Shown: one piece after another, positions 4,398 through 28,259 of the stretch
How the letters are laid out: every line of letters starts with the position of its first letter
Numbering within the stretch: position 1 is the first letter of the stretch
From: Candidatus Polarisedimenticola svalbardensis
GTDB taxonomy: Bacteria; Acidobacteriota; Polarisedimenticolia; Polarisedimenticolales; Polarisedimenticolaceae
Reading direction: 5' to 3'
Assembly: GCA_014764515.1 (NCBI GenBank)
Contig: JACXWD010000027.1
Span: 1-40,141 of the forward strand
DNA length: 40,141 nt
Translations under genes and position numbers: made by a program
The notes under the pieces: model-generated
The model's input: the letters and a program-made list of their open reading frames with translations, nothing else
The model's database searches: none
Told to the model about the DNA's origin: nothing

Positions 4398-4976
4398 ATG
4401 GACCGAAGCGACCGGATTACGAATGCACGCCTGGGCTACCTGCCGGTTCCGGCTGTGCTGTTTGCCCTGGTGTTTTGCGTTCTGTTCGGTCTGGGGAATA
4501 CCCCGGGCCTTGCGGAGCAGGACGACCAGCAGCTGATGAGAGGTCTGGACGAACAGGTCCAGGAGATCAAGTCCGACGTTCTCGGCATTGCGGAAGAGCT
4601 GAGCCTGCTGGAAGAGAAACTGCTGTACCCGTCCGGGACCCAGGTTGCGATCTTCATCGCGCTGGAACCAGGGGATGCCATGCGGCTCGACGCCGTGCAG
4701 CTCCAGATCGACGGTCAACTGGTGGCGCATTACATCTACAGCGCCAAGGAGCTGGAAGCGCTGCGCAAAGGTGGAGTGCAACGGCTGTACGTCGGCAATG
4801 TGGCCACCGGAACGCACCGGCTCGAGGTGTTCATCGACGGCAAGTCCACCGGCGGCGAAGATATTACACACACGGAACGGTTCGAATTCCGCAAGGAAGT
4901 GAAGCCGAAAATGGTCGGCTTGACGCTGGCCGGCTCCGGTTCCGGCAGCGCTGCGATCACACTCGGGGAATGGTAG
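4398..4976 (+). CDS. Conserved periplasmic protein, first gene of the Glt-like operon
   Basis: The 192-residue protein begins with a hydrophobic segment (residues about 14-38) that looks like a signal peptide or anchor, followed by a short helical stretch (42-72) and a beta-rich domain. The domain includes the phrases GGVQRLYVGN and GTHRLEVF. Similar proteins head TPR-TolQ-ExbD-AgmX gene sets in other proteobacteria and are sometimes labelled AraC regulators, but I see no helix-turn-helix here. The ATG has GAGGGA five bases upstream. The next gene starts 3 bp after its stop. It is likely a periplasmic part of the machine encoded downstream; a specific function cannot be read from the sequence. 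Confidence 0.7.
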   Translation: MDRSDRITNARLGYLPVPAVLFALVFCVLFGLGNTPGLAEQDDQQLMRGLDEQVQEIKSDVLGIAEELSLLEEKLLYPSGTQVAIFIALEPGDAMRLDAVQLQIDGQLVAHYIYSAKELEALRKGGVQRLYVGNVATGTHRLEVFIDGKSTGGEDITHTERFEFRKEVKPKMVGLTLAGSGSGSAAITLGEW

Positions 4977-4979
4977 TCG

Positions 4980-6860
4980 ATGCGCATCCCTCACCAGCTG
5001 CTCGGGCTTGGCCTGGGCCTGGTGCTTGCGGCCACACCGGTTGCAGGCGCCGAGTTGAGGGACCTCTTTTTCGGTGAGGCGCTGTACCACGCCTATCAGG
5101 GGCAGTACTTCGATGCGCTCCAAAGGCTCGACACCGAACTCGCCCAGTACAATGGTCTGGATGAGCCTTCCCTGGATACGCTGCACTATCACGTCAACGA
5201 TGCCGAATTCTCGGTAGGCGATTTCGAGCTCCATTACCGCATGCACCACCGGGCAGGGCGGGCCATCAAGGCGGTGCTGGAAGGCGCCGTCGATGAAGCG
5301 GTACGCAACGAGGCCGCCTTCCGGCTCGCGCGGATCCATTTCCAGAAAGGTCAGCTGGAAGAAGGGCTGCACGCACTGGACCGGATCGAAGGCACGGTGC
5401 CGCCCGGGCTGCCGGACGACATCGCGTTCCTGCGCGCCAATCTGTACATGGCGACCGGCCGGCCCAGCGATGCCGTCGACGAGCTCGACCAGGTGCAGAG
5501 CGACGACGGACTGGCCGGGTTCACAGCCTACAATCTCGGCATCGCACTATTGCAGTCCGGCCGGCCTCAGGAAGGGATCGAACAGCTGGACAAGGCCGGG
5601 CTGCTGGCAGGCGGCGATGGCGCCGGACTTGCGATCCGGGACAAGTCCAACCTGGTGCTCGGATCGATCCTGTTCGAATCGGAAGAGTACGAGCGGGCCA
5701 GGCGGTCGCTGGACCGGGTTCGCCTGGAAGGGCCGTTCTCGAACCAGGCCCTGCTGCGAGCCGGTTGGGCCGAGGCCACAGCCGGGAGTTATGACCGCGC
5801 CCTCGTCCCGTGGAACATCCTGGTGGAACGTGAACCGACCGACGCCGCCGTCCAGGAAGCGATGCTGGCCGTGCCCCATGCTTACTCCAAGTTGGATCTC
5901 CACGGCCGCGCCGCGATCCGGTACGGGCAGGCGCTGGAACTGTTCAGCAACCAGATCGAACGGGTGGACGCATCGCTGGACAGCATCCGTGGAGGACGGT
6001 TCCTCGATGCGTTGATCCGGGAGGAGGTCCGGCAGGACAAGCAGTGGGTCATACGCCTGCGCACCATGCCCGATGCACCGGAAACCTACTACCTGATGGA
6101 ATTGATGGCGACCCACGATTTCCAGACCGCACTGCAAAACTACCTCGATCTCGAGGACCTGCGGTCGAAGCTGCTGGGCTGGCGGGACAGCCTGGACGCC
6201 TTCGAAGACATCATTCGGCTGCGGGAAGAAAATTACGAGCCGCTGCTGCCGGGGGTCGATGCGCAGTTCCGGGAGCTGGATTCGCGGATGCGCCTGCGCC
6301 TTGCGCAGCGCAAGCATGTCGGCGATCGTCTGCAGGCGATGCTGACCGTGCCCCGGCCGGAGTACCTGGCGACCGCCGACGAGGGGATCGCCGGGGAGCG
6401 GATCGGACGCATCGAAAAGCGACTGGGTGATTCCAACGATCCTGACACAGCCGCCTTCCGGGAGCGGGTGGCCCGGTTACGTGGTGTTCTCACGTGGCGT
6501 CTCGAGACCGAGTACCACGAGCGGTTGACCGCGGCACATGAGCACCTCAACGAATTGAATGTGCATGTGGAGGCTCTCACCCGGCAGTATGAGTCCTTCG
6601 TCAGGAATCGACAGGCTGCGATGCACAGTTACGTCGGTTACGAAACCCGCATCAAGCGGCTTCGCACCGCGGTCGGCGATGCTATGCAGCGCATCGACAT
6701 CGTCATGGCCCGGCAGGGTCACTTGATTGAGACCGTCGCCATCAACCAGTTGAAAGCCCGCAGGGAACACCTGGTCGCCCAGCAGACCCAGGCGCGCTAC
6801 GCCGTGGCCGATAGCTACGACCGGGCCGCTCGCGCCGACATCGGTGAGGTGCAGCCATGA
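4980..6860 (+). CDS. Secreted TPR and coiled-coil protein
   Basis: A 626-residue protein with a signal peptide (about residues 1-24, ending in PVAGA) and therefore probably periplasmic. Residues about 30-320 are helical TPR-like repeats, with a recurring small-residue pattern such as AFRLARIHFQKGQLEEGLHA and AYNLGIALLQSGRPQEGIEQ. The C-terminal third is charged and heptad-like, predicting coiled coil. In position it corresponds to the periplasmic TPR subunits (GltD/AgmU type) of the Myxococcus gliding complex, an inference from operon context rather than from a diagnostic motif. Its final ATGA overlaps the start of the next gene. Confidence 0.72.
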   Translation: MRIPHQLLGLGLGLVLAATPVAGAELRDLFFGEALYHAYQGQYFDALQRLDTELAQYNGLDEPSLDTLHYHVNDAEFSVGDFELHYRMHHRAGRAIKAVLEGAVDEAVRNEAAFRLARIHFQKGQLEEGLHALDRIEGTVPPGLPDDIAFLRANLYMATGRPSDAVDELDQVQSDDGLAGFTAYNLGIALLQSGRPQEGIEQLDKAGLLAGGDGAGLAIRDKSNLVLGSILFESEEYERARRSLDRVRLEGPFSNQALLRAGWAEATAGSYDRALVPWNILVEREPTDAAVQEAMLAVPHAYSKLDLHGRAAIRYGQALELFSNQIERVDASLDSIRGGRFLDALIREEVRQDKQWVIRLRTMPDAPETYYLMELMATHDFQTALQNYLDLEDLRSKLLGWRDSLDAFEDIIRLREENYEPLLPGVDAQFRELDSRMRLRLAQRKHVGDRLQAMLTVPRPEYLATADEGIAGERIGRIEKRLGDSNDPDTAAFRERVARLRGVLTWRLETEYHERLTAAHEHLNELNVHVEALTRQYESFVRNRQAAMHSYVGYETRIKRLRTAVGDAMQRIDIVMARQGHLIETVAINQLKARREHLVAQQTQARYAVADSYDRAARADIGEVQP

Positions 6861-9800
6861 TCCGTCGTCTCACCATTGCGATGGTGCTCGCGCCGGTCTT
6901 CATGGCCGGGTGCGCCACCGTTCCCGAACGCCAGGCCCAGGTGACCCTGGCGGAGCTGCGGAACGTGCAACCGGACGTGCAGGAAGTGCAGGTCGAGCAG
7001 GGCTTTGAGCAGGCGATGGAGGGCTACCGCCGCTTCCTCGAAGAGACGCCGGAGACGGCGATGACTCCGGAGGCGATGAGGCGTCTCGCGGATCTGCAGA
7101 TCGAAAAGCAGTTCGGGATACGCGATGGTGAGGGCACCGTGCAGGAAACGGCTCTCCCGGTACCTTCCCAGGCGGATGTGCCCGAGAGGGCCGGCACGTC
7201 CGGACAGCCTGGATCGCCGGATGGAATATGGGAATCCGATCAGGAATTCGAGCAGCGCACGACCGCCGAAACTGCGGTTCCGGCAAGCCCTGCAGGGGTT
7301 GAGACCGATCCCGCGGACGCCCTCGAGGCGATCGCACTGTACGACAAGCTGCTTACCGAGTACCCGAGTTACGAGAACAGCGACCAGGTGCTGTACCAGA
7401 AGGCGCGGGCATACGACGAAATCGGCCGCAGCGAAGAGGCGATGGAGACCATGGAGCTCCTGATCCAGGCCAATCCCCATTCCGGGCACTACGACGAAGT
7501 GCAGTTCCGGCGGGGCGAATTCCTGTTTACGCGCAGGCAGTATCGCGATGCGGAGAGCGCTTATGCGGCGATCTTCAACCTGGGCGCCGGATCATCGTAT
7601 TACGAACTGGCTCTCTACAAGCTCGGGTGGACGCTCTACAAGCAGGAGTTCTACGAGGAGGCCCTGCACAAGTACATGGCATTGATGGACTACAAGGTGT
7701 CCGTCGGCTACGACTTCGATCAGGCCGCAACGGAAGAAGACGAGCGCCGCGTAGCCGATACCTATCGAGCCATCAGCCTGAGCTTCAGCTACATCGGTCC
7801 ACCGGAAACCGTTGCGGAGTACTTTGCGGAGTTCGGCAATCGCACCTACGAGGATCGGGTCTACAACAACCTCGGCGAACACTACCTGGCCAAGCTGCGC
7901 TATGACGACGCGGCGAAGACCTACAAGACGTTTATGGGACTATACCCGTTCCACCGAGCCGCGCCGATGTTCAGCATGCGGGTCGTGGAAACCTTCACCA
8001 AGGGTGAGTTCCCCAAGCTCGTGCTGGAGGCGAAGCGGGAGTTCGCGTCGGATTACGGACTGCACTCCGAATACTGGCAGCACTACGAGCCCGAGGAATC
8101 GCCGGAAGTACTGGCCTACCTGAAGACGAACCTGAACGATCTTGCAACGCACTATCACGCCCGGTACCAGGATACGGAGGACGAAGCCGAGAAGCTTGCA
8201 AGCCATCGCGAGGCGAGGCGGTGGTACGGCGACTACCTCGAGTCCTTCCCGACGGATGAAGATACGCCGGCGATCAACTACCGGCTGGCGGACCTCCTCC
8301 TGGAGAGTGGGGAGTTCGGGGAGGCGGCCAGGCAGTATGAGCGCACGGCCTACAAATACGCCGGGCATGCCCAATCGTCGGCTGCGGGTTACGCTGCGGT
8401 CTACGCCTACCGCGAGCAGATGAAGGTTGCCGACGATGAACAGCAGGACGCGGTCAGGCGCAACACCGTCGAAAGCTCGCTCCGGTTCGCCGACGCGTTC
8501 CCGGACCACGAACACACCGCGGCGGTTCTGGGCGCCGCCGCTGACGACCTGTACGAGCTGGAGGATTACGACTCCGCCATCGCAGCGTCCCGGCGGGTAA
8601 TCGATGCCTATCCCGAGGCAGGCGAAACCATCCTGCGCTCGGCGTGGATCGTCGTCGCACACGGCTCGTTCGAACTCGCGGAGTACCCGCAGGCCGAACA
8701 GGCCTATGGTGAAACCCTTGCGCGGACTCCGCTGGATGACGAGTCCCACGAAGGACTGGTGGACAATCTCGCCGCCTCGATCTACAGGCAGGGCGAGATC
8801 GCAAACGACGCCCAGGACTATCGGGCGGCTGCGGACCATTTCCTGAGAATCCGTTCGGCGGCGCCGACGTCCGCCATCCGTGCATCGGCCGAATACGATG
8901 CAGGCGCCGCGTTGATCCGGCTGGAGAGCTGGAACGAGGCTGCAGGGGTGTTCGAAGCGTTTCGCAGCGCCTACCCCGGGCATGAACTGCAGCTGGAGGC
9001 CACCAGGCAGATCGCGTACGCCTACCGCGAGGACGGCCGGTTGATGCGCGCCGCCGACGAGTACGACCGTTTCGCCACCGAGTCGGTAGACCCGGAGCTG
9101 CGTCGTGAAGCGCTGCTGGTGGCAGGGGACCTCTACGAGCAGTCCGATGCCCCGGGCCGTGCTCTAAATATCTATAACCGCTACGTGGAAGAGTATTCCG
9201 TCCCTGTGGAGCCGGCCCTGGAAACCCGGTTCAAGATCGCCGGGATCCACAACGCGGCTGATGACGATTCGCTCTATCACCAGGAACTGGCGGAGATCGT
9301 AAGGCTCGAGGCGGAGGCCGGGCCGGACAGGACCGGTCGGACCCGCTTCCTGGCGGCAAGTTCGGCCCTCGTTCTCGCTGAGCAGCTCTACGGAGAGTTC
9401 ATCACCGTGAAACTGCTGCAACCGTTCGAAGCCAGCCTGCAGGACAAGCAGGAGCGCTTGGACACCACCATCGCGGCCATGGGTGCTCTGGTGTCGTACG
9501 AGGTCGCCGAGGTAACGGCGGCCGCCACGTACTACATGGCGGAGATCTACTTCGATTTCAGCCGGTCCCTGGCTGAGTCGGAACGGCCCACCGATCTTGA
9601 GCCGGTGGAACTGGCGGAGTACGAATTGGCCCTTGAAGAGGAAGGGTATCCCTTCGAAGAAAAAGCGATCGACCTGCACGAGGAAAACCTGGAACTGTTG
9701 CAGGCCGGAGTCTTCAATTCATGGACTGCGAAAAGCCTCGACAAGCTGGCCGAGCTGGTTCCGGGGCGTTACGCCAAGAACGAAATGAGCAGCGGCTTCC

Positions 9801-9937
9801 TCGCCAGGGTCGATGTCTACGAGTATCGCTCGCCCGGGTCGGAATTCGTCGGACCGCTTATGAGCGGCATCGACACGACGGACCGGAACGAAACGGTCCT
9901 GGCCGCCCGGGCGCAGTCCGGTGAGGAGGAGCGCTGA
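6857..9937 (+). CDS. Large TPR outer-membrane lipoprotein
   Basis: A 1026-residue lipoprotein. The signal peptide ends in a lipobox, FMAG-C (Cys19), followed by ATVPE, with no Asp at +2, so outer-membrane sorting is plausible by the E. coli rule. Most of the chain is tandem TPR/YfgC-like helical repeats (for example [20 protein letters not shown] and [20 protein letters not shown]). The periodic YPxxxxxD and FPxxExT phrases are typical of periplasmic TPR proteins such as BamD, YbgF/CpoB and AglT/GltE. It overlaps the gene before (ATGA) and after (TGATGA), so the three TPR genes are translationally coupled. Likely role: outer-membrane or periplasmic scaffold of the energised complex. Confidence 0.75.
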
Positions 9938-10599
9938 TGAATCGTTACACCATTCCGATCATGCTCTTTGGTGTGCTGTTCGCCGGTTGCACGGCCCGTC
10001 TCGACAAGCCGGCGCAGACGACGCCTGCGGATCTGCCCGATGCACGCGTAAAAACGCAGTCTGCGGCGATGGAACAGGATGCCGGCGGGTTCAGCATCAC
10101 GGAGCCGGTACCGGCAAACCTCGAACTGCGCGCTGGATACGATGAGGCATTGCGCTACTTGGAACAGGAGCGTTATGAACCTGGGATCACGTTGCTGCTG
10201 GAGCTGACCGAACAGGCGCCGGAAGCTACGGCGGCGCACATCGCCCTGGGGATTGCCTACGCGAACATCGACGACCTGGACCGCGCCGAGGCCAGCCTGC
10301 AAAAAGCGCTTGAACTGAATCCACGACATCCCGCCGCGTACAACGAGCTCGGTCTGGTCCAACGGCGCAAGGGGCGGTATGCGGATTCCCGCGCCAGTTA
10401 CGAGGCGGCCCTCTCACAGTTCGCCGACTACCACTTCGCCCACAGGAACCTGGCAATCCTGTGCGATCTGTATATCGGGGACACCGCGTGTGCGCTGGAG
10501 CATTACGAGGCGTACAGCCGGATGGTTCCGGAGGACGGCGAGACCGTCAAGTGGATCGCCGATCTCCTCAACCGCATGAACCGGGAGGAGGCGCCATGA
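9937..10599 (+). CDS. Small TPR lipoprotein
   Basis: A 220-residue lipoprotein with lipobox LFAG-C (Cys18) and a compact block of canonical TPRs (residues about 70-190): [20 protein letters not shown] and the consensus-like [18 protein letters not shown]. It is the third TPR gene in a row. The start ATG shares its first base with the stop of the upstream gene, and its own stop overlaps the next start (ATGA at 10596-10599). The short size and regular repeats suggest an adaptor for protein contacts in the periplasm. Confidence 0.75.
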
Positions 10600-10934
10600 G
10601 CGGAAACATCGTCCTGGCATTGCTGCTGACCATCGGTTCGGTCCCGGTGGAAACCGGGGCGGAGGCCGAACAGCCTGCCGCCGCCGCCGGAACCGGTGTG
10701 GAGACGGCAGAAGGCGCAAAGAGGATCTCCGGGATGTCCATCCTGGGTAACCAGGAAGCGCCCACGTCGCTGGTCATCGTGCCCTGGAAGAGCTCGGAGA
10801 TCGGTGAGGCCCTGGGTATCTCGACGATGCTCGACGATTCCAGGCAGCCAGTGGACCGGGAAGTGTTCATGCGGGCGCTGAGCTACTACGAAATCAGGTC
10901 GGAATCTCTTGTCTTGGATGACCGCAAGCAATAG
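10596..10934 (+). CDS. Small secreted protein conserved with the Glt-like operon
   Basis: The frame is open further upstream, but the ATG at 10596 has GGAGGAG five bases before it and overlaps the preceding stop. It gives 112 residues beginning [15 protein letters not shown], a short signal peptide. The mature part is low-complexity (Ala/Gly/Glu) up to about residue 40, then a conserved-looking core including [12 protein letters not shown] and [10 protein letters not shown]. No known domain is recognised. I recall similar short proteins directly before TolQ-like genes in related operons. Probably a periplasmic accessory subunit. Confidence 0.65.
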
Positions 10935-10960
10935 CGAAGGCTTTTCAGGAGGGCTCGAAG

Positions 10961-11611
10961 ATGGATGGTTTGTATGCAGTAATCAGGTTTTTCGTAGCGG
11001 GGGGTTCGTTCATGTACCCCATTCTGATCGTGTTTACGGTCGGCATCGCGATAGCGATCGAGCGCTACATCACGCTTACACGGATCCGGCGCCAGAACGA
11101 CGGGATGTGGAGCAGGCTCCATCCGGCCCTGGCGGACGGAGACTTCGAGAAGGCGCGTGAGATGACCAGCGAGGACGACTCAACCGTTTCGCGGCTGCTC
11201 GCCATGGGTCTCGCCCGCCAGGGCGCCGTGCGCCGCCGGGAAGACATCGAAATCGCCATGGAAGAGAGCATGATGGAGATCATCCCGCAACTGGAGAAGC
11301 GCACGGCGTACGTCGCGCTCGGAGCCAGCGTGGCCACCCTGCTCGGACTGCTGGGCACGATCATCGGGTTGATCCAGGCGTTCACGGCAGTGGCCAACGC
11401 CAATCCTGCGGAGAAGGCCGACCTGCTGTCCGCCAGCATCTCGGTCGCCATGAACACCACCGCTTTCGGGCTGATCGCCGCGATCCCGTTGCTGGTAATG
11501 CACACCGTGCTCACGTCCAAGACCGGCGAGATCGTGGACAGCCTCGAGATGGCTTCGGTGAAGGCGCTCAACGTCATTACGAGCCTGGCGAAGCGCCAGA
11601 TCGCGGTGTAG
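10961..11611 (+). CDS. MotA/TolQ/ExbB-family proton channel subunit
   Basis: A 216-residue inner-membrane protein with three transmembrane helices (about residues 7-33, 117-142 and 157-183) and a cytoplasmic loop after the first, the TolQ/ExbB/AglR topology. Family motifs are GLLGTIIGLIQAF in TM2 and AMNTTAFGLIAAIP in TM3, which align with ALIATAxGLxAAIP of ExbB. The Glu that precedes ALIATA in ExbB aligns with Val162 here. ExbB-type pentamers pass protons with an ExbD dimer to power TonB-like transducers. The genes just downstream supply two ExbD-like proteins and a transducer. AGGAGGG lies before the ATG. Confidence 0.92.
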   Translation: MDGLYAVIRFFVAGGSFMYPILIVFTVGIAIAIERYITLTRIRRQNDGMWSRLHPALADGDFEKAREMTSEDDSTVSRLLAMGLARQGAVRRREDIEIAMEESMMEIIPQLEKRTAYVALGASVATLLGLLGTIIGLIQAFTAVANANPAEKADLLSASISVAMNTTAFGLIAAIPLLVMHTVLTSKTGEIVDSLEMASVKALNVITSLAKRQIAV

Positions 11612-11616
11612 CCGAT

Positions 11617-12099
11617 ATGGCCAGATCACACCATTATCGGCGCCGCCAGAAGGAGGTGCCCGAGCTCGACATGACCACCTTCATGAACCTGATGGTGGTT
11701 CTCGTGCCTTTCCTGCTCATCACTGCGGTGTTTTCGCGGATCACCATCGTTGAGCTGGACCTGCCCAGCGCCCAGGCCGCCACGCCGATGACCCCGACCT
11801 TCCGGGTCGAGGTGGTCGTACGGGATGCAGGGTTCGAGATCATGGACGGCACCCGGGTCATCGCCGCGATTCCGAATGTGGACGATCGGTATGACCTGCC
11901 GAAGCTGTCCGATTACCTGGTACGGATCAAAGGCGAGTACCCGGAGAAGGACGACGCCTCCGTGCTGGTCGAACCGGATATCGAATACGACCATCTCATA
12001 CAGGTCATGGATACCGTGCGGAGCGTTGAGATCAGCGACGGCGGGCAAATGATTCGTGCCGACCTGTTCACGGCGATATCCATAGGAGATGCGCCATGA
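11617..12099 (+). CDS. ExbD/TolR-family protein lacking the membrane Asp
   Basis: A 160-residue protein with a basic N terminus, one transmembrane helix (about residues 20-40) and a periplasmic domain typical of ExbD/TolR. In this family an Asp near the start of the helix (D25 in ExbD, D23 in TolR) carries protons and is required for function. Here the aligned position is Asn24 in TTFMNLMVVLVPF, codon AAC. Its partner encoded next keeps the Asp. The gene starts 5 bp after the channel gene and its stop overlaps the next start (ATGA). Family certain; an altered or structural role is inferred from the missing Asp. Confidence 0.88.
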   Translation: MARSHHYRRRQKEVPELDMTTFMNLMVVLVPFLLITAVFSRITIVELDLPSAQAATPMTPTFRVEVVVRDAGFEIMDGTRVIAAIPNVDDRYDLPKLSDYLVRIKGEYPEKDDASVLVEPDIEYDHLIQVMDTVRSVEISDGGQMIRADLFTAISIGDAP

Positions 12100-12593
12100 A
12101 AGTATCGCGCCGGATCGCACGTATGACGCGCAACAGGCGGATCGTACCGAAGTTGAATCTGACCTCACTGATGGATGTCTTCACCGTTCTGGTTTTCTTC
12201 CTGATGATCAACTCGGCCACCGTGGAGACCCTGCATCAGCCGAAGGAGATCAAGCTTCCGGAATCGGTGATCGAGCAAAAACCGCGGGAAACCGTCGTGA
12301 TCTTTGTCGGCCGGGACGAGGTCCTGGTGCAGGGTGTGCCGGTGGCGCGGATCGCCGACATCCAGGCGACCACCAGCGCGGAAATCGAACCGATCAGTGT
12401 GCGGCTCGCGGAACTGAGTAAGAGCGTCATCGGGCTGAGCACGAAGACGGTTGCAGAGAGTCAGGAGGTCACGGTGCTGGCGGACAAGTCGATTCCGTTC
12501 AGTGTCCTGAAGAAGATCATGGCCACTTGCACCGGGCAGGGTTATACGCGGGTGTCGCTGGCGGTGATTCAGAAATCCGCTCAAACGCCCTAA
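12096..12593 (+). CDS. ExbD/TolR-family protein with intact Asp
   Basis: A 165-residue ExbD/TolR homologue with one transmembrane helix (about residues 22-42) and a periplasmic domain. The proton-carrying Asp is present at D27 in LTSLMDVFTVLVFF. The C-terminal region keeps the family's VTVLADKSIPFSVLKKIMAT segment, close to the common ADxxxxYxxV phrase. Paired ExbD genes beside one ExbB gene are also the arrangement of Myxococcus AglR-AglQ-AglS. Overlaps the previous gene by four bases. Likely the catalytic half of an ExbD heterodimer. Confidence 0.92.
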   Translation: MKVSRRIARMTRNRRIVPKLNLTSLMDVFTVLVFFLMINSATVETLHQPKEIKLPESVIEQKPRETVVIFVGRDEVLVQGVPVARIADIQATTSAEIEPISVRLAELSKSVIGLSTKTVAESQEVTVLADKSIPFSVLKKIMATCTGQGYTRVSLAVIQKSAQTP

Positions 12594-12618
12594 CGAGAAC
12601 AGGGATCGGGGACACGGC

Positions 12619-14088: not shown

Positions 14089-14113
14089 TGCCGTGAGAAA
14101 AACGAGGGCAGCC

Positions 14114-17100
14114 ATGGCACGCAGCGAATCAAGTGGTATGAAAAGGACCGGCCGGACAATGCTGTTCCTGCTGCTGCTCCTGACCCTGTTCGCCGGTGCG
14201 TCCTCCGAAGCGCTGGCGTGCTCGGATTATGGCGGCCTGATCGACGGCTTCGTCGACCCGGTCCCGCCGTCTCAGGTCCAGATCGACGGCAACTGCACCG
14301 TCCGGAACTTCCCGGCGGACAACCCGCTCACGACCAACTTCAGCTTCTTCACCCAGCCGGGCCAGACCGACGAGCGCTGGCTGATCATCTTCGACAACGT
14401 GGTGCATACCGGCCAGATGGCGTGCAACTCCGTGGCCGGCCACAAGATCTGGTTCACAAACGGCTCGTCCAGCTCGATCCAGGAAGGCTGCCAGAACCTC
14501 CTGATCCCGGTGGAGAAGATCGACAAGCAGAACCCTGCGGGCCAAACCACCGCCACCGTCGGCGTCCCGTTCACGTACACGCTGAAGATCCCGGTCCTGT
14601 TCGACCCGGCGACCGGTGCCGTCATCAACGCCAACGGATCGCCGAACGACCTCCATGGCATCACGGTGTGGGACGATCTGCACGCAACCGGTGTGGACCT
14701 GACCTACGTCAGCCATACCGCGTACTGGCTGGACGACGGCACAGCGGTGCCGCACACGTTCTCGAACATCGGCGGCGCCCTGACCTTCGACACGATCCCG
14801 ATCGTCGTAGCCGATCGCCAGTTCGTCATCGAGCTCACCGTCGTGCTCGACGACTCCCCGGCCAACACTCCCGGCACACAGTTCATCAATACGGCCAAGT
14901 GGGATTTCGGGCGACTCATCGACGACGTGTTCTATGAGCCGCTCCCGGGCGAATGGGGCGTCACCCCACCGCTGACCATCGCCGCACCGGTGCTCGAGGT
15001 CACCAAGTCGGGCCCGGATACCATGAACCTGGGACAGTGGGGCGAATTCGTAATCGATGTCCGGAATAGAGGGCTCGGCGACGCCTGGGACGTCTCCATT
15101 CAGGACCTGCTCCCGGACGGCCCGACGGGAGGGATGTGCGACCAGACCCCCGAGATTCTGAGCAGCCGGGTGTTCGCAGCCGACGGCGTCACCCCGGTGC
15201 CGGGCAAGGGCCCGCTCAACCCGGGCATCGACTACCGCCTGGCCTGGAGTCCGGCGCCGGACTGCAGGCTCGATCTCACGATGCTGACACCCGCAGGAGT
15301 TATCGGGCCGGATGAGCGGCTGGTCCTGCGGTACCGCACCCAGTTGGACAGCGACACCCGGAACGGCATCGCGCTGACCAACGTGGCCGGCGCCATCCGC
15401 TGGTTCAACGGCGACAACACCAATCCCCAGCGGCAGGTCTACTCCCGAACCTTGACCAACGGCACCGTCGGAACCCCGGATCACGAGGATGCCCATACCG
15501 TGACGGTAGCGCTTACCGGGTTCTTCTTCGAGAAGACCGTCGCGGACCTGACCACCGGTGCGGATCCCGCCACCACCGCCGGACCGGGGGACACGCTGCG
15601 GTACACCCTGCGTTTCCGCACCACCGATCAGGCGCTGGCCGGTTTCAGGATCCATGACGAGCTGGACGCTCTGAACACGCCGCCGGCGTTCGAGGCCGGG
15701 ACCCTCACCCTGGTGACCTACCCGGCAGGGGCAGACATCAGCGGCACCAGCAGTACCGGCGGATCTCAAGGAACCGGTGTCCTCGACATCCGGAACCTGA
15801 ACCTGCCCGCCGACGGCGAGCTCCTGATCCGGTTCGACATCGTGCTGGACTCGACCCTCGGCAACGGCACGGTGGTTGCCAACCAGTCGACGCTGTTCCT
15901 CGCGAACGGAACGCCCTTTACGTTGAGCGACGATCCGAACGTGAACGGAACGGCCGACCCCGAAGTTCCCGGCGACGAAGATCCGACCCGGGTAACCATC
16001 GTTGCGGCCCCCGATTTCCGGGTACACAAAATATCCACCGACCTGACAGGCGATCCGAACGTCCTGCTGGCCGGCGAGACCCTGCGGTACACCATCACGG
16101 TGAAGAACATCGGCAACGAAGACGCGGCAAACGTGTCGCTGCGGGATCAGGTGCCGGTGAATACGACCTATGTCGCAGACAGCACCACCCTGAACGGCGG
16201 ACCGATCCCGGATGATTCCGGCATGACTCCGCTGGTAAACGGTATCCTGATCCATTCGCCGGCGGATACGACCCCGGGTGCGATGCCCGCCGACAGTTCG
16301 GCCAACCCGGCCAACGTGGCGACCATCACCTTCGATGTGGTGGTGAATCCGGATGTCGTGGACGGCACGGTGATTTCGAACCAGGGGTTCGTCAGCGCCA
16401 TCGCCGCCGGAATCGTCGATCAGCCGTCCGATGACCCGGACACCCCGACTGCCGACGATCCGACCCGGGACATCGTGGGCAACGTTCCGCTGCTCTACGC
16501 AGAAAAGAGCGTGGTGCTGTTCGGCGATCTGGGGTCGCCGGGAATCGTGGATCCGGGCGACGTCCTGCGCTACACGATCACGGTGCACAATTCGGCTGCG
16601 ATACCGGCGACAGGCGTGGTTCTGACCGACGCCGTTCCGGCGGATACGACCTACGTCGCCGAATCCACGCTGCTCAACGGGCTGCCGGTCGGTCAGCCCG
16701 ACGGTGGCGCATCGCCCCTCGCTGCAGGTATCGACGTCAGTTCTTCCGACCTGACCCCGCCGTTGCCGGGCCCCGGCGCCGGCACGGTTTCCCCCGGAAG
16801 CAGCGCAGTGCTGCAGTTCGACCTGCGGGTCAACATCGGAACCCCCGAAGGAACCCTGATCAGCAACCAGGCGGTGGTCGAGAGCACCGAACTGCCGGAC
16901 CTGTTGACCGATGGTGACGGCAATCCTGCTACCGGGCCCGAGCCGACGGTGGTGGTGGTCGGCGCCAGCCAGCAGCTCTCCATCACGAAGCAGGTTGCGG
17001 TGGTCGGCGGCGGCGCCGCCGTCCCCGGCGCCGAGCTGGAATACATCGTCCGCGTTGTGAACATCGGGGCGGTGCCTGCACTGTATGTGGCGGTAACCGA

Positions 17101-19258
17101 TGATCTGGATGCACCTCAACCGGGCCAGCTCGCCTACGTGGACCTTTCGGCGACAATGAACGGTTCGACGGCAGGTGTCGGCTTCTCCGGTTCGACGATT
17201 ACCGCCGATTATTCGGCGGTCCACGGACCGCTGGAGCCGGGCGGGGTCATCGTGATCCGGTTCCGGGCCGTTCTGGACGCCGGCCTTACCGACGGCGCCG
17301 TGGTGACCAACACCGGTGTGGTGGCCTGGAACAATCCGACACAGACCGAAAGCGGAAGCGTCTCGATCACAGTCGGCGGAATCCCCGGTGTCGCCGTACT
17401 GAACGGTGCGGCATGGCACGACGCCGACTTCGACGATGTCCGGGATAGCGCTGAGCGGGTCCTGGCCGGCTGGGCGGTGGACCTGTACCGCGATGGCCTG
17501 TTGCTGCATACGGCGTTGACGGACACCGCCGGGAACTACCGCATCATCGGCATTGAGCCGAACGACGGCACTGGAACCATCTATGAATTGCGGTTCCGCG
17601 CCCCGGGTGCAGGGGCGAGCACCGCCATGCTCGGCCTTGCCGCTTCACCGTTCACCGACGGACTGCAGCGGATCAGCGACATCGTTGTGCCGTCGGAAGC
17701 GAACCTGCTGGGCCTGAACCTGCCGATCGACCCGAACGGCGTCATCTACAACTCGATTTCCCGTGCGCCGGTTCCAGGGGCGACACTCACCCTGCAGGAT
17801 GCCGCCGGTGGTTCGCCGTTGCCGGCCGCCTGTTTCGATGATCCGGCCCAGCAGGGCCAGGTCACGCTGGCGAACGGGTACTACAAGTTCGACGTCAACT
17901 TCAGCGATCCGGCCTGCCCCAGTGGTGGCGCCTACGTCATCGACGTAACAATTCCTCCGGGTGCGACCTATATCCCCGGTCCTTCCCAGATCATCCCGCC
18001 CACATCCGACGGCTCGACAGCCGCCTTCTCGGTCCCGGCCTGTCCGGGCGGCGTGGACGACACGGTTCCGGTCACCGCCCTGTTCTGCGAGGTTCAGCCT
18101 TCGGAGTTCGCTCCGGCTGCGGCGGTTCCGCCGCGAAGCGCGGGCACGGTCCACCATGTTCACCTGACCCTGGACGGCAGCATGTCCCCCGGTTCGAGCC
18201 AGATATTCAACAACCACATCCCGGTGGATCCGGAACTCAGCGGTTCCCTTGGGATCTCCAAGACGACGCCGGTACTGGATGTCACCCGAGGGCAGCTGGT
18301 TCCGTACGTCATCACCGTGAACAACATGGCTGGCCAACTGCTCACCGACGTGACCATCGTGGACCGCTTCCCGGCCGGATTCAGCTACGTCGAGGGTTCC
18401 GCCCTTCTCAACGGCGTGCCCACCGAGCCTGCGATCAACGGCCGGGAGCTGAGTTGGAACGCTGTGGTCATCGCGGGCACCGAGGCTTTAACGGTGAAAC
18501 TGCTGCTGGCCGTGGGCGCCGGCGTGACCGAGGGTGAATATGTGAACCGGGTGCAGGCGGTGAACGGGGTCACCGGCGACGCCATGTCCGGTGAAGCGTC
18601 CGCCACCGTCCGCATCGTGCCGGATCCCACCTTCGACTGCACCGACGTGATCGGCAAGGTGTTCAACGACATCAATCGCGACGGGCGGCAGGACGACGGC
18701 GAAGAAGGGATTCCAGGCGCACGGGTTGTGACGGCAACCGGCCTGCAGGCGACCACCGATCCATACGGGCGGTTCCACATCACCTGCGCGGTCACGCCCC
18801 ACGAGAGTCGCGGAAGCAACTTTGTCTTGAAGCTCGACGACAGGAGTCTGCCCAGCGGGTTCCGGCTGTCCACGGACCCGGTGCAGGTCAAGCGCGCCAC
18901 CCGCGGCAAGGTTCTGCGGTTCCGGTTCGGAGCATCGATATTCCGGGTGGTCGGCATCGATCTCTCCGATGCGGCGTTCGAGCCGGGTACCACCGCAATC
19001 CGCGTACAGTGGCGGCCGCGACTGGGCCTGCTGCTGGAGGAGCTGAGCAAGGCGCCGGCGATACTGCGCCTGTCCTATGTCGCCGATACCGAGGATGAAG
19101 CACTGGTCGGACGACGTGTTGCGGCCGTCAGGCAGCAGTTGACCGAACTCTGGAATGCGGCGGACGGCCGCTACCCGCTCACCGTCGAAACGGACATCTT
19201 CTGGCGTCTCGGTGGACCGCCCGGGCGATCCGAATTGCCTGTGTGGGACGGGAGGTGA
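14114..19258 (+). CDS. Giant DUF11-repeat and SdrD-B-like surface protein
   Basis: About 1714 residues from the ATG at 14114 (GAGGG five bases upstream); a GTG at 14093 would add seven. A signal peptide ends in SEALA before Cys-Ser-Asp. Residues 30-290 form an N-terminal beta-rich domain. DUF11-type repeats start near 292, 469, 635, 792, 953 and 1375, with phrases such as LRYTITVKNIGNEDAANVSL and the recurring DxVPxxTTYVxxSTxLNG. SdrD-B-like domains start near 1092 and 1508 (GKVFNDINRDGRQDDGEEGI). The last 100 residues (from about 1608) may fold like a degenerate OmpA domain. Such proteins are usually stalk-like adhesins or surface-layer parts. Lying inside the motor operon, it is the probable cargo or outer element. 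Confidence 0.8.
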   Translation: MARSESSGMKRTGRTMLFLLLLLTLFAGASSEALACSDYGGLIDGFVDPVPPSQVQIDGNCTVRNFPADNPLTTNFSFFTQPGQTDERWLIIFDNVVHTGQMACNSVAGHKIWFTNGSSSSIQEGCQNLLIPVEKIDKQNPAGQTTATVGVPFTYTLKIPVLFDPATGAVINANGSPNDLHGITVWDDLHATGVDLTYVSHTAYWLDDGTAVPHTFSNIGGALTFDTIPIVVADRQFVIELTVVLDDSPANTPGTQFINTAKWDFGRLIDDVFYEPLPGEWGVTPPLTIAAPVLEVTKSGPDTMNLGQWGEFVIDVRNRGLGDAWDVSIQDLLPDGPTGGMCDQTPEILSSRVFAADGVTPVPGKGPLNPGIDYRLAWSPAPDCRLDLTMLTPAGVIGPDERLVLRYRTQLDSDTRNGIALTNVAGAIRWFNGDNTNPQRQVYSRTLTNGTVGTPDHEDAHTVTVALTGFFFEKTVADLTTGADPATTAGPGDTLRYTLRFRTTDQALAGFRIHDELDALNTPPAFEAGTLTLVTYPAGADISGTSSTGGSQGTGVLDIRNLNLPADGELLIRFDIVLDSTLGNGTVVANQSTLFLANGTPFTLSDDPNVNGTADPEVPGDEDPTRVTIVAAPDFRVHKISTDLTGDPNVLLAGETLRYTITVKNIGNEDAANVSLRDQVPVNTTYVADSTTLNGGPIPDDSGMTPLVNGILIHSPADTTPGAMPADSSANPANVATITFDVVVNPDVVDGTVISNQGFVSAIAAGIVDQPSDDPDTPTADDPTRDIVGNVPLLYAEKSVVLFGDLGSPGIVDPGDVLRYTITVHNSAAIPATGVVLTDAVPADTTYVAESTLLNGLPVGQPDGGASPLAAGIDVSSSDLTPPLPGPGAGTVSPGSSAVLQFDLRVNIGTPEGTLISNQAVVESTELPDLLTDGDGNPATGPEPTVVVVGASQQLSITKQVAVVGGGAAVPGAELEYIVRVVNIGAVPALYVAVTDDLDAPQPGQLAYVDLSATMNGSTAGVGFSGSTITADYSAVHGPLEPGGVIVIRFRAVLDAGLTDGAVVTNTGVVAWNNPTQTESGSVSITVGGIPGVAVLNGAAWHDADFDDVRDSAERVLAGWAVDLYRDGLLLHTALTDTAGNYRIIGIEPNDGTGTIYELRFRAPGAGASTAMLGLAASPFTDGLQRISDIVVPSEANLLGLNLPIDPNGVIYNSISRAPVPGATLTLQDAAGGSPLPAACFDDPAQQGQVTLANGYYKFDVNFSDPACPSGGAYVIDVTIPPGATYIPGPSQIIPPTSDGSTAAFSVPACPGGVDDTVPVTALFCEVQPSEFAPAAAVPPRSAGTVHHVHLTLDGSMSPGSSQIFNNHIPVDPELSGSLGISKTTPVLDVTRGQLVPYVITVNNMAGQLLTDVTIVDRFPAGFSYVEGSALLNGVPTEPAINGRELSWNAVVIAGTEALTVKLLLAVGAGVTEGEYVNRVQAVNGVTGDAMSGEASATVRIVPDPTFDCTDVIGKVFNDINRDGRQDDGEEGIPGARVVTATGLQATTDPYGRFHITCAVTPHESRGSNFVLKLDDRSLPSGFRLSTDPVQVKRATRGKVLRFRFGASIFRVVGIDLSDAAFEPGTTAIRVQWRPRLGLLLEELSKAPAILRLSYVADTEDEALVGRRVAAVRQQLTELWNAADGRYPLTVETDIFWRLGGPPGRSELPVWDGR

Positions 19259-19263
19259 GCGGT

Positions 19264-22200
19264 ATGAGCAAGCACGTCCATCTACCGCTGATATTCGGAT
19301 TATTGTTGACCTCTTCTGCCGGGGCAGGTTCGGTGGACGACGCCGAACTTGGCGAGACGGTCGAAAGGCACCTGTCCTCCGACCAGCCGTTCCGGCAATG
19401 GTCCCAGGACCCGGACCGGCTCAACAGTGAGCTTGGGGACCGGCTCGAAGTCCACCAGGTCGCAACCGAAGAGGTGGATACCGTCAAGCTGAAGAATGTC
19501 GTTCCGCCGATCCGGTTCGAATCGGGAGTAGCCGACATACCTCCGGACTACGTCGAAAAACTCGCCAGAACCCTTGAGCGAGTGCGGCACCGCAAGAACG
19601 TTCGCGTCCACTTCGTCGGGCATGCCGACTCCCAGCCGCTGTCCGATTCCCTGGTTCGGGTTTTCGGGGACAATGCGGGCCTCTCCAGGGAGCGGGCCGG
19701 CGAGGTGGCGGAGTATTTCAAGACCGCTCTCGACCTGCCGCCGGAAGCGATCACGTACGAATGGGCCGGCGACGCCCGGCCTGTGGCCACGAACACGACC
19801 GCAGATGGGAGGGCGCTCAACCGCCGGGTCGAGGTGGAAGTGTGGTACGACGCGATCCGGGACGGTCTGCGGGATGAAGAGGTCGTTGTTTCCGACGACA
19901 TCAGGCAGATCAAGGTCTGCAGGATGGAAACCGTCTGCAAGATGCGTTACCTGGAAGGCCACGAGCGGCGGGCGCGGGTCAGGAACCTGATCGTGCCTTT
20001 GCGTTACGAGGATGAAAACACGCCTGTTCCCGAAAGGTTCACCCACCAGATCCGGCAGGCGCTTTCAAACCTGCGGGACAAGCACAACGTGAAGGTCCGG
20101 TTCATAGGCCATACCGACGACGTGGCGCTGACCGGCCGCAATGATCGAATTTACGGGAACCACCTGTCGCTGTCGAAAGCTCGGGCGCACCGCCTGGCCC
20201 TGGCCGTCCAGGAACTCCTGAACCTTCCTGCCGCCGCCATCGAAAGCGACGGTCGCGGTGCCTCGCGCCCGCTGGCTTCCAACGAAACCGGGCAGGGCCG
20301 GGCGTTGAACCGCCGCATCGAGGTGGAGTTCTGGTACGACGATCCTCTCCAGGAACTGCCGGACGAGCCGCAGCTCTGTCCCGGTGATGTGGGCGAAGAG
20401 ATGGTGACCCGGGTGTACGACCCGCCGTGGGGCAGCCTGGCAACCCTGGAACTCGAGTCCGGCCAGCCGGTCATTCCACCGGGCTACGCTGTGACCCTGC
20501 ATCGGGCGTTGACCGATGTGGCGGAGCGGACCAACGCCCGGTTGCGGTTTATCGGGTATACGAAAAACGAGCGCCTCGACCGCCGCACCGCATCGGTGTA
20601 CGGCGACGACATCGGCTTTTCCGCAGCACGGGCGCGCCGCACCATGGAGACCGTCAAGCAGAACCCTCTGTTGTCCGGCGCCCGGTCGGAGCATGAAGGA
20701 CGGGGCTATGTCCAGTCCGACGACGTGGTGAACGCCGGCTTCATCCAGGGTGAGCGGTCTTTCGTGCGGGTACAGGTCGTCTATGACGAGCCGGCGCCCC
20801 TCTACGATTACGAAGGGGTGGATATCACCCGTATCACCAGGGAACTAAGGCCGGCAAGTCCGTACGAACTGAACGTGATGCGGATCACCGTGGACGGCGA
20901 GCCGATCGACGATCCGGGGCGCAGCTATTCCGATCTTCAGCGCTGCACCGACGTTGCGCTGGAAGACGCCAGCATCCAGTTCCGGTTCGACAACCTGGAG
21001 TCCCGGCGGCGACTCGGCGTCGCGGCCCACCCGAACGCCGTAGCGGTGAACCGGGTGGACGACGGTGCGATCGCACCGGTAGTGCATTTCCGGATGTACG
21101 ACAACTACTCGAGCTTCATAGACCGGGCCGAGATCCGGATCTTCGACCTGCAGCAGTCCCTGCAGGCCGAGCCGCTCCAGATCGCCGAAATCGACGCGGA
21201 GGGGATGGCGGAGTGGCGTCCGGCTGTGGACAGCTTCGCCGGTCCGGTACGCGAGCTCCGGTATGTCCTGCGCGCCTACGATTCCAAAGGACGTTTCGAT
21301 GAAACCGACCCCCGGCCGCTGTGGCTGTACCGCGGGTCGCCGCCTGAGGAGTTGGGGCACGAACTGCTGGCCGGCTACGGCGAAAGCGATCTGGCCCGTC
21401 ATCAGATCCCGGTGGACGGCGGAACGGTGAACGTCCGGGGCAACGACATTCCGGCGGGGCACACGGTCTGGGTGGCGGGCCGCCAGGTTCCGGTGGATCC
21501 GCAGGGCAGGTTCGTCGCGGAGGAAATCCTGCCTGCCGGTGCGCACACGGTGGAGGTGGCGGTGCTGGATGACGCCGGCAACGGTTCGCTGTACCTTCGC
21601 GACCTGGAATTCAAGGGCACCGACCTGTTCTACGTCGGTATCGCCGAGGTGACGCTGTCCGAGAACCGGGCCAGCGGACCGGCCGACCTGCTGCAGGGCG
21701 CGAACGCGCCCCAGCCTTACGATTCCTCGCTGGATGGCCGGCTGGCGTTCTACCTCAACGGCCGGGTCAGCAGGAACTGGCGCTTGACGGCCAGTGCGGA
21801 TACCCGCGAAGGCCCCCTGGAAGACCTGTTCAGCAACTTCCTGGACAAATCGCCTGATGCGCTGTTCCGGCGGATCGACCCCGATTACGCCTACCCGACG
21901 TTCGGAGACGACGGGATCGTCGAGGAAATGGCTCCGACCCTGGGCAAGTTCTACGTCAAGGCGAGCCGTGGCGAGAACTACGCTCTGTGGGGCAACTTCA
22001 AGGTCGGCTACATGGGCAACGAACTGGCCCAGGTCGATCGCGGTCTGTACGGCGCCAGCGCACACTACCAATCCGAGTCCACCACCCGTTCCGGTGAACG
22101 GCGGATCGCCGTGGACGGCTTCGCCGCCGAACCGGGAACCATGGCGAGTTATGAGGAGTTGCGGGGAACAGGCGGCTCCCTGTATTTCCTCCGCCACCAG

Positions 22201-24306
22201 GACATCCTGACCGGCTCCGAGCGGGTGCGGATCGAAATCCGGGACAAGGACTCGGGGATCGTCACAGGGGTGGTCAACCTGCGGCCCGGTATGGACTATG
22301 ACATCGACCATCTCCAGGGCCGGCTGCTGCTGACCGAGCCGCTGTCGTCCATCGCCGGCGACAATCTTCTGGTGCGCAGCAGCGGCCTGAGCGGCGATGA
22401 GGCGTACCTGGTGACCCGCTATGAGTACACCCCCGGGTTCGACGAGCTGGATGCGGTGGCTGTCGGGGGCCAGGGCCATTTCTGGTTCAACGACCATGTG
22501 CGGATCGGCCTGACCGCCAACGCCAACGAGGAAGGGGATACCGACAGCAGTCTCGGCGCCGCAGACCTGACCCTGCGGATGAGTCCCGAATCCTGGTTCA
22601 AGGTCCAGGCGGGCCGGAGCGAGGGGCTGGTCTCCAATTCGCTGCGATCCGATGACGGCGGATTCGGGTTCCAGAGCCAGGACGCAGTGTCGTTCTCCGA
22701 CGCGGAAGCAGGCGCCTACCGCGCCGATCTGAGCGCCGGTCTCGGCGATTTCTTCGACGGTCGCGACGGTCGCATCACGCTGTACACGCAAAAACTCGAC
22801 GCCGGCTATTCGGCGCCGGGCCAGACAACGATCAAGGACACCGAGCAGTTCGGCGGCACCCTCGGGATACCGCTGACGAACCGCCTGAGCCTGAGCGCCA
22901 AAGGGGACCGGAAGAGCCAGGACCAGGGACTCGAGACCCGGGCGATTGAATTGAACGTCGGCTTCAAGCTGACCGACCGCTGGAGCGTCAGCAGCGGCGT
23001 TCGCAACGACCTGCGCCAGGACAACTCGCCGGTGGTTCCGTTGACCCAGAAACAGGGCGAACGGACCGACGCTGTGGTGCAGATAGCGTACGATCCCGGC
23101 GCATCCTGGCGCGCTTATGGATTCGTTCAGGACACGGTTTCCAAAACCGACAACCGTGAAGACAACGGGCGGATCGGAGCAGGCGGATCCTATCGCCTGA
23201 CGGAACGTTTCCGGGTGGACGGCGAGGTGTCCGGCGGAGACCTGGGGGCCGGCGGCCGGATCGGCACCAATTTCCTGTTTTCCGACAGGACCAGCCTGTA
23301 CCTGAATTATGCGCTGGAAAACGAACGGACGGACAACGGCCTGCAGGTCCGCCGCGGTAACCTGGTCTCGGGCGTGAAGAGAAAGCTGTCCGACAGTTCC
23401 AGCGTCTACCTCGAGGAGCGGTACCAGAACGGCGGGTCGCTGACCGGCCTGACCCACGCCGCCGGTGTCCACCTGGTGGCAAGGGAACGCTGGAATTTCG
23501 GCGGTAGTGCGGAGTTCGGCACACTGAACGATTCGTTGACCGGCGCCGAGACCGATCGCAGGGCCGCCGGAGTCCGTGTCGGTTACGGCCTGGGTACGAT
23601 CCAGGTCTCCAGTGCCGTCGAGTATCGCCGGGATGATGCGGAACAGGCGGACGCGACCCACACCACCAGGACGGCATGGCTGTTCCGCAACAACTTCAAG
23701 TACCAGCTGACGCCGGACTGGCGCATCGTCGGCAAGCTGAACCACTCGTTCAGTGACAGTTCTCTGGGAGAGTTCCATGACGGCGGCTACACCGAGGCTG
23801 TGTTCGGCTACGCCTACCGCCCGGTGAAGAACGACCGGCTGAACGGACTTGCCAAGTACACGTACTTCTACAATATCCCGACCGCCGGCCAGGTGGTGTT
23901 TCAGGACACCGCAGCCGAGTTCATTCAGAAAAGCCATATCGCTTCCTTCGACCTGACCTTCGACGTCTCGGCCGACTGGTCCATCGGCGGCAAAGTCGCC
24001 TACCGCCTGGGGCAGGTCAGCCTGGATCGGGAGCAGCGCGTATTCTTCGACAACACCGCCCAGCTGGCGGTGCTCCGGGCCGACTACCGCTTCCGCAAGG
24101 GCTGGGAGAGCCTGGCGGAGTTGCGCATGCTGGACCTGCCGGATATCGGTCAACGCCGCGGCGGCGCCTTGGTGGCGTTCTATCGCTACATCGGCAAACA
24201 CCTCAAGGTCGGCGCCGGGTACAATTTCACCGACTTTTCCGACGATCTGACCGACCTGAGCTACGACCACCAGGGCGCGTTCGTCAATATCGTCGGGACC
24301 CTGTAA
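19264..24306 (+). CDS. Triple OmpA-like domain protein with C-terminal outer-membrane barrel
   Basis: About 1680 residues from the ATG at 19264 (GGGAGGTG just upstream, overlapping the previous stop). A signal peptide ends near SSAGA. OmpA-like domains lie at about 75-200, 238-365 and 383-510. The first two keep the peptidoglycan-contact Asp (GHADS, GHTDD) and the LSxxRA Arg; the third has GYTKN and lacks the Asp. A region with Ig-like strands follows (515-785), then roughly 870 residues of alternating polar/hydrophobic strands typical of a large outer-membrane barrel. The phrase RPGMDYDIDHLQGRLLL is reminiscent of pre-barrel strands in other big export barrels. It would bridge cell wall and outer membrane and may be the pore or anchor for the DUF11 protein. 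Confidence 0.8.
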   Translation: MSKHVHLPLIFGLLLTSSAGAGSVDDAELGETVERHLSSDQPFRQWSQDPDRLNSELGDRLEVHQVATEEVDTVKLKNVVPPIRFESGVADIPPDYVEKLARTLERVRHRKNVRVHFVGHADSQPLSDSLVRVFGDNAGLSRERAGEVAEYFKTALDLPPEAITYEWAGDARPVATNTTADGRALNRRVEVEVWYDAIRDGLRDEEVVVSDDIRQIKVCRMETVCKMRYLEGHERRARVRNLIVPLRYEDENTPVPERFTHQIRQALSNLRDKHNVKVRFIGHTDDVALTGRNDRIYGNHLSLSKARAHRLALAVQELLNLPAAAIESDGRGASRPLASNETGQGRALNRRIEVEFWYDDPLQELPDEPQLCPGDVGEEMVTRVYDPPWGSLATLELESGQPVIPPGYAVTLHRALTDVAERTNARLRFIGYTKNERLDRRTASVYGDDIGFSAARARRTMETVKQNPLLSGARSEHEGRGYVQSDDVVNAGFIQGERSFVRVQVVYDEPAPLYDYEGVDITRITRELRPASPYELNVMRITVDGEPIDDPGRSYSDLQRCTDVALEDASIQFRFDNLESRRRLGVAAHPNAVAVNRVDDGAIAPVVHFRMYDNYSSFIDRAEIRIFDLQQSLQAEPLQIAEIDAEGMAEWRPAVDSFAGPVRELRYVLRAYDSKGRFDETDPRPLWLYRGSPPEELGHELLAGYGESDLARHQIPVDGGTVNVRGNDIPAGHTVWVAGRQVPVDPQGRFVAEEILPAGAHTVEVAVLDDAGNGSLYLRDLEFKGTDLFYVGIAEVTLSENRASGPADLLQGANAPQPYDSSLDGRLAFYLNGRVSRNWRLTASADTREGPLEDLFSNFLDKSPDALFRRIDPDYAYPTFGDDGIVEEMAPTLGKFYVKASRGENYALWGNFKVGYMGNELAQVDRGLYGASAHYQSESTTRSGERRIAVDGFAAEPGTMASYEELRGTGGSLYFLRHQDILTGSERVRIEIRDKDSGIVTGVVNLRPGMDYDIDHLQGRLLLTEPLSSIAGDNLLVRSSGLSGDEAYLVTRYEYTPGFDELDAVAVGGQGHFWFNDHVRIGLTANANEEGDTDSSLGAADLTLRMSPESWFKVQAGRSEGLVSNSLRSDDGGFGFQSQDAVSFSDAEAGAYRADLSAGLGDFFDGRDGRITLYTQKLDAGYSAPGQTTIKDTEQFGGTLGIPLTNRLSLSAKGDRKSQDQGLETRAIELNVGFKLTDRWSVSSGVRNDLRQDNSPVVPLTQKQGERTDAVVQIAYDPGASWRAYGFVQDTVSKTDNREDNGRIGAGGSYRLTERFRVDGEVSGGDLGAGGRIGTNFLFSDRTSLYLNYALENERTDNGLQVRRGNLVSGVKRKLSDSSSVYLEERYQNGGSLTGLTHAAGVHLVARERWNFGGSAEFGTLNDSLTGAETDRRAAGVRVGYGLGTIQVSSAVEYRRDDAEQADATHTTRTAWLFRNNFKYQLTPDWRIVGKLNHSFSDSSLGEFHDGGYTEAVFGYAYRPVKNDRLNGLAKYTYFYNIPTAGQVVFQDTAAEFIQKSHIASFDLTFDVSADWSIGGKVAYRLGQVSLDREQRVFFDNTAQLAVLRADYRFRKGWESLAELRMLDLPDIGQRRGGALVAFYRYIGKHLKVGAGYNFTDFSDDLTDLSYDHQGAFVNIVGTL

Positions 24307-28257: not shown

Positions 28258-28259
28258 TT

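Follow-up and report, generated by a model that had tools for sequence, protein, structure and literature searches.

An Agl-Glt-type motor operon co-inherited with a giant DUF11 protein and a predicted large outer-membrane barrel protein in a soil/marine acidobacterium

What is an ExbB-type motor operon for when its last two genes encode giant surface proteins? The question is raised by an operon at positions 4398-24306 of a 40,141-nucleotide stretch (the window) of contig JACXWD010000027.1 from Candidatus Polarisedimenticola svalbardensis (GenBank assembly GCA_014764515.1). The contig belongs to an Acidobacteriota genome of 3.69 Mb in 180 contigs, that of a soil/marine bacterium. The operon joins a core related to the Agl-Glt gliding machinery of Myxococcus to a DUF11-repeat protein and a triple-OmpA/barrel protein. 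Core operons fell into two classes, class I with this giant pair and class II without it. The coupling of core and pair is well supported by sequence comparison, and the two have been inherited as a unit in two phyla. The initial annotation, made from the letters alone, had treated the giant genes as part of one system with the motor. A search of class I genomes, a gammaproteobacterial sample and a tree of the barrel protein all upheld them as a conserved, co-inherited part of it.

The operon lies downstream of divergent dprA/topA and consists of 11 co-directional plus-strand genes with intergenic gaps of -16 to +26 bp, as had been annotated. This order of genes was found again in both Acidobacteriota and Gammaproteobacteria, and the operon is therefore more than a chance arrangement. 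Domains were called with Pfam and NCBIfam models. The genes are as follows.

4398-4976, plus strand: orf192, exported coiled-coil protein with a predicted Ig-like domain; found in both core classes, no Pfam or NCBIfam match
4980-6860, plus strand: TPR626, tetratricopeptide-repeat (TPR) protein of 626 aa with a signal peptide; GltC-like by position and a weak profile match
6857-9937, plus strand: TPR1026, TPR lipoprotein of 1026 aa; GltD-like, profile match to Myxococcota GltD-like proteins at 2e-85
9937-10599, plus strand: TPR220, TPR lipoprotein of 220 aa; GltE-like
10596-10934, plus strand: orf112, small exported protein with the diagnostic motif VPWK...P-D--VF-R---Y
10961-11611, plus strand: ExbB/TolQ/AglR-type channel, placed by tree with Glt-linked Myxococcota ExbB
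11617-12099, plus strand: ExbD1, ExbD-like (AglQ/S-type), Asn at the usual proton-carrier Asp position
12096-12593, plus strand: ExbD2, ExbD-like (AglQ/S-type), Asp kept
12619-14088, plus strand: GltG/AgmX-type transducer with an AgmX/PglI C-terminal domain
14093-19258, plus strand: giant exported DUF11/SdrD-repeat protein of 1721 aa with a conserved C-terminal region
19243-24306, plus strand: triple-OmpA/barrel outer-membrane protein of 1687 aa, OmpA domains at residues 79-205, 240-370 and 395-517

The annotated domain content was borne out. TPR were found in three proteins, two of them with a lipobox; MotA_ExbB scored 90 bits, the two ExbD 55 and 59 bits, DUF11 118 bits and OmpA, in three copies, 68 bits. 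The transducer scored 61.6 bits against the AgmX/PglI C-terminal model NF033768 (cut-off 40) and is laid out as a cytoplasmic coiled-coil domain, one transmembrane helix (approximately residues 170-195), a Gly-rich linker and a TonB-like C-terminal domain. In the barrel protein the three OmpA-like domains are followed by an Ig-like/plug-like middle and a predicted large C-terminal beta-barrel. Both giants exist as annotated, and their lengths were revised: 1721 aa and 1687 aa are read from GTG starts, and the earlier figures of 1714 and 1680 corresponded to internal ATGs. The start of orf112 was corrected to 10596.

The orf112 gene is present in core classes I and II, and a composite DNA pattern for its motif was run over GTDB contigs, giving at least 118 stretches. 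Eighty of these were examined as loci and nearly all carry the core operon. Class II operons stop at the GltG-like transducer gene; the genes beyond it vary and are mostly of housekeeping type. Class I and class II loci were chosen by core identity before 50 genomes were searched with the barrel protein. A barrel orthologue (53-74% identity) was found in 26 of the 27 class I genomes; in the exception, G322, the DUF11 gene runs off the end of its 8-kb locus. Among the 23 class II genomes a close orthologue was found in G348 only, which also holds a class I operon; with G348 set aside, none of 22 had one. In the TPR1026 tree, which like the other trees was a quick search with relatives that are mostly metagenome-assembled genomes, classes I and II are separated by one 100% branch, and this branch matches presence and absence of the giant pair exactly. 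Two class I phylum labels, Anaerolineales (L101) and Myxococcales (L088), may reflect binning errors or transfer. Steroidobacter sp. RBC007 (L072, L121) and G348 (L110/L196) each carry a class I and a class II core operon in one genome.

In an evenly drawn sample of 369 gammaproteobacterial genomes, 85 had orf112 and 13 had a barrel protein at least 50% identical; all 13 were within the 85 (P = 2.4e-9), so that each barrel-bearing genome carries the core marker. In 8 of the 13, barrel and orf112 lay on one contig, no more than 25 kb apart. Among 297 Acidobacteriota genomes orf112 was found in 7, all of the same class.

Profile hidden Markov models (HMMs) built from the operon and its relatives were run against eight Myxococcota regions. 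Matches were obtained for the GltD-like protein (2e-85 to 1e-44), the GltE-like protein (4e-39 and weaker), ExbB (2e-58), both ExbD (7e-27) and the GltG-like transducer (8e-24 and weaker); the GltC-like match was weak, 1e-10 at best. Three of the regions (L242, L243, L244) have the order TPR (the weak GltC-like match)-GltD-GltE-ExbB-ExbD-ExbD-GltG. The orf112 and DUF11 profiles had no match in the eight regions, and the barrel profile gave just one weak OmpA-type match there. In the ExbB tree the native channel groups with Glt-linked Myxococcota ExbB (L216-218) with support 91, and E. coli TolQ and ExbB fall outside that group (support 99). The motor thus does not cluster with TonB or Tol motors in this tree, and the proposed match of the first genes to the Myxococcus Agl-Glt architecture is supported by both gene order and phylogeny: the motor half is a genuine Agl-Glt relative. 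The Asn in ExbD1 and Asp in ExbD2 recur in 28 of 30 class I loci, 24 of 34 other loci and Myxococcota L242-L244. This asymmetry is common to Glt-linked motors across phyla and possibly reflects a directional, asymmetric stator. An FHA domain, tested as a GltG feature, had no Pfam match in the transducer. FHA is listed for M. xanthus GltG only (PMC3169522) and therefore belongs to GltG proper, not to the core family at large.

Six acidobacterial operons (G007, G024, G028, G328, G329 and G330) carry another motor. Their ExbB and both ExbD come from another subfamily, nearer E. coli TolQ/ExbB. Their transducers have lost the cytoplasmic coiled coil, and the transmembrane helix has an SxxxH motif that is absent from native transducers; this motif is typical of TonB/TolA. 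Transducer residues 265-489 and all other genes are still 57-75% identical. In a tree built from the genes outside the motor, the swapped operons with sufficient data, five in number, form a group that also contains the unlabelled G010 (support 87), so that a single replacement and later co-inheritance explain them most simply. The motor is thus a power unit that can be separated from the rest, and the boundary within the transducer marks where the motor ends and the machine starts, with the transmembrane helix and cytoplasmic part on the motor side and the periplasmic tip on the machine side. The swap is a rare natural experiment on how an ExbB-type motor is coupled to outer-membrane work.

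The pair itself fits a stand-alone DUF11/OmpA-barrel family, in which a DUF11 giant with a conserved C-terminus is followed by a barrel. Such pairs without a nearby motor were found on Eleftheria, Sinorhizobium, Paracoccus and Vibrio replicons, and in gammaproteobacteria and Acidobacteriota. In the barrel tree the motor-linked proteins form one 100% clade nested among stand-alone members; G475 and G010 were counted as presumably motor-linked, since their contigs end before the motor genes. Every motor-linked barrel has 2-3 OmpA domains, against 0-1 in each of the 17 stand-alone members, so OmpA domains were gained on joining the motor. The initial annotation had named giant genes found mostly without motor genes as evidence against a joint machine. 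As the pair is widespread without any motor, this is true of the wider family and false of the orthologous clade. A single open reading frame (ORF) of 5146 aa encodes both DUF11 and barrel in L203 (class I), where a linker replaces the second signal peptide. Single-ORF forms also occur in L258 and in the distant, motor-less L048, L050, L052, L054 and L255; fused forms run repeats, OmpA, barrel. Gene fusion is a usual sign of physical partnership. A distant barrel homologue (G501:C2:461122-463986) ends an 11,777-aa ORF, apparently a giant single-chain repeat-plus-barrel protein. A scan of viral contigs for the barrel gave no relative, a plasmid search with the long TPR protein gave no match, and one with orf112 gave nothing real.

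We hold with about even confidence that the eleven genes together specify a self-contained trans-envelope machine driven by protons, made of a class I Agl-Glt core and its own outer-membrane output module. Its topology, physical contacts and kind of work we infer as follows. The ExbB channel and the asymmetric ExbD pair, of which only one member has the proton-carrying Asp, would energise the GltG-type transducer. Through its TonB-like tip the transducer would work on two targets, the TPR lipoproteins in the periplasm and the triple OmpA domains of the barrel protein. These OmpA domains would anchor the barrel, as a very large pore or holdfast, to peptidoglycan; by sequence reading the Asp and Arg positions that peptidoglycan binding is expected to need are retained in the first two of them but not in the third. 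Residues 1050-1687 gave 25-30 strands by hydrophobic alternation, against a shuffled mean of 14 (maximum 23), and up to ~34 by eye, both counts being approximate. Amphipathic strands abound in the last 640 residues, which makes a very large barrel likely, though not proven. The DUF11 giant would be the dedicated client of the barrel, threaded or held through it with the C-terminus in the periplasm and the repeats outside, and motor power may export, extend or move it. More specifically, and only tentatively, class I may be a distinct system for protein export and surface display, driven by proton-motive force (PMF), in which a Glt-family motor powers a giant repeat protein through a barrel of ~25-34 strands, assembled by capture of a motor-less pair and with an exchangeable motor module.

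Several observations weigh against this proposal. Members of the stand-alone DUF11/barrel family apparently get to the cell surface with no motor of their own; given such motor-less pairs, the motor may add movement, tension or anchoring and not basic export. AlphaFold modelling of the barrel from a single sequence was uninformative (predicted local distance difference test, pLDDT, 29), and a profile search of the PDB matched the OmpA domains only, giving no solved relative of the barrel; a pore for DUF11 is accordingly a conjecture about function. When the C-terminus of DUF11 was aligned by hhalign with the three OmpA domains it was in register each time, at a non-significant probability of 2%. 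Its single-sequence AlphaFold model had a mean pLDDT of 45, with one beta-alpha-beta-alpha-beta stretch at 60-75, and Foldseek placed the TssL OmpA-like domain at rank 8 (E 0.14), a hint only. That the DUF11 C-terminal region is a degenerate OmpA-like domain is possible, the alignments and models being only suggestive.

A surface-motility machine, in which the motor drags the DUF11 giant as a mobile adhesin by analogy with Flavobacterium SprB or the CglB-linked Myxococcus Agl-Glt system, is a weaker possibility and somewhat doubtful. Homology of the core to the gliding machine and the adhesin-like DUF11/SdrD repeats fit it, as does an MglA-like GTPase encoded elsewhere in the same genome (G000:C143:78084-78368). 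The annotated absence of MglA thus holds for the window, which also has no AglZ, and not for the genome. MglA-like GTPases are, however, widespread and this one is unlinked to the operon; OmpA domains with peptidoglycan-binding residues argue for a fixed barrel; and gliding is undocumented in most core-bearing bacteria, the core alone not driving motility (PMC3169522). The GTPase (L261), marked by the motif GxxxxGKTTNL...YTVPGQVxYxATRK, forms the N-terminal part of a long reading frame.

It is unlikely that the system is a Tol-Pal-like stabiliser, whose motor pulls on an outer-membrane barrel tied to peptidoglycan by three OmpA domains under a passive DUF11 coat. The gain of triple OmpA domains does coincide exactly with the barrel's joining the motor, the TPR lipoproteins resemble YbgF/CpoB-type repeats, and the replacement motor of the swapped operons is of TolQ/ExbB type. 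Such a stabiliser would nevertheless leave no role for a co-inherited, C-terminally conserved DUF11 protein or for the fusions, and class II cores lack the barrel. The genome also has three other MotA/ExbB loci, so that a Tol system is probably present already.

A TonB-type importer, with the barrel as receptor or porin for a large substrate caught by DUF11 and energised by the transducer, is highly improbable, and TonB iron uptake was rejected. The transducer has a TonB-like tip and some stand-alone homologues are annotated as 'TonB-dependent receptor', but no Plug or TonB_dep_Rec domain was found in the barrel protein (the Pfam scan gave OmpA only), the native motor clade differs from the TonB ExbB clade, and the operon is without transporter or enzyme genes. 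Chance adjacency of two unrelated neighbouring operons is scarcely credible and was rejected on comparative data: the barrel pair does occur without the motor and the core without the pair, but the class I versus class II split, the co-occurrence in all 13 genomes, a class label that changes once on the tree and a gene order kept across two phyla stand against it.

A self-contained machine with its own surface module would provide a definite and experimentally accessible task for this family of motors, which since 2011 has had no known role in bacteria that do not glide. The class I surface partners are open to deletion and observation in the cultured Lysobacter daejeonensis and Pseudomaricurvus sp. 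HS19.

Downstream of the operon, all on the plus strand, 24967-25380 encodes a small HicB-like/helix-turn-helix antitoxin-type protein with no obvious HicA partner. It lies between the operon and a gene at 25469-27709 for an exported 746-aa protein with several CarboxypepD_reg-like domains, which directly follows the operon and is outside the conserved unit. A response regulator, a HEAT-repeat protein, a family-2 glycosyltransferase and a TPR/outer-membrane barrel protein follow in series at 27874-32142, and look like a small exopolysaccharide synthesis/export cluster adjoining the operon. At 38418-39380 a tyrosine recombinase looks like an integron integrase, with an IntI-like insert of 16 residues.

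Several known systems resemble parts of the operon. Type IX secretion and gliding (GldLM, SprA, SprB; PMC8986121) is alike by analogy, with a PMF motor, a very large outer-membrane barrel and a giant surface adhesin. Unlike it, the operon has no GldL/M, SprA or type IX C-terminal domain. Membership was rejected as none of the equivalogs GldK/L/M/N, SprA and PorV reached cut-off; PorW/SprE gave a sub-threshold generic TPR match (26 versus 250 bits). The SiiAB-SiiE system of Salmonella pathogenicity island 4 (PMC6272769) encodes an ExbB/MotA-type proton channel (SiiAB, PMC12204202) with a giant Ig-repeat adhesin. SiiE exits by type I secretion, whereas the operon has no ABC transporter, membrane-fusion protein or outer-membrane factor genes, and type I membership was rejected. 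The fused DUF11-barrel forms share the layout of an autotransporter. Stand-alone pairs (Eleftheria, Sinorhizobium, Acidobacteriota) have the same DUF11 C-terminal region and barrel family, and differ from the operon pair in the missing motor and fewer OmpA domains. The Myxococcus Nfs/Agl spore-coat machine (PMC3858216) is likewise a Glt-family machine that acts on a surface polymer and not in gliding; its polymer is the spore-coat carbohydrate, whereas the linked surface partner here is an operon-encoded protein.

The closest relative is the Agl-Glt core (Group B: AglRQS with GltC, D, E and G), which Luciano 2011 (PMC3169522) reported as linked genes of unknown function in non-gliders. Genes, order, AgmX/PglI tip and ExbB clade are the same. 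The initial annotation had taken the combination of genes for uncharacterised. For the core this did not stand, as it was described in 2011, clustered in non-deltaproteobacteria including gammaproteobacteria with one extra gene missing in myxobacteria; the operon likewise has an extra gene absent from Myxococcota. For the dedicated DUF11/barrel surface pair it did, no description being found in open-access full texts, supplements aside. Unlike M. xanthus GltG, the transducer has a coiled-coil cytoplasmic domain in the place of an FHA match, and unlike the gliding machine the operon itself holds none of the Group A genes GltA, B, F, H, I, J and K. To the core of 2011, in an account whose main text mentions neither, the operon adds a DUF11 giant and a triple-OmpA large barrel.

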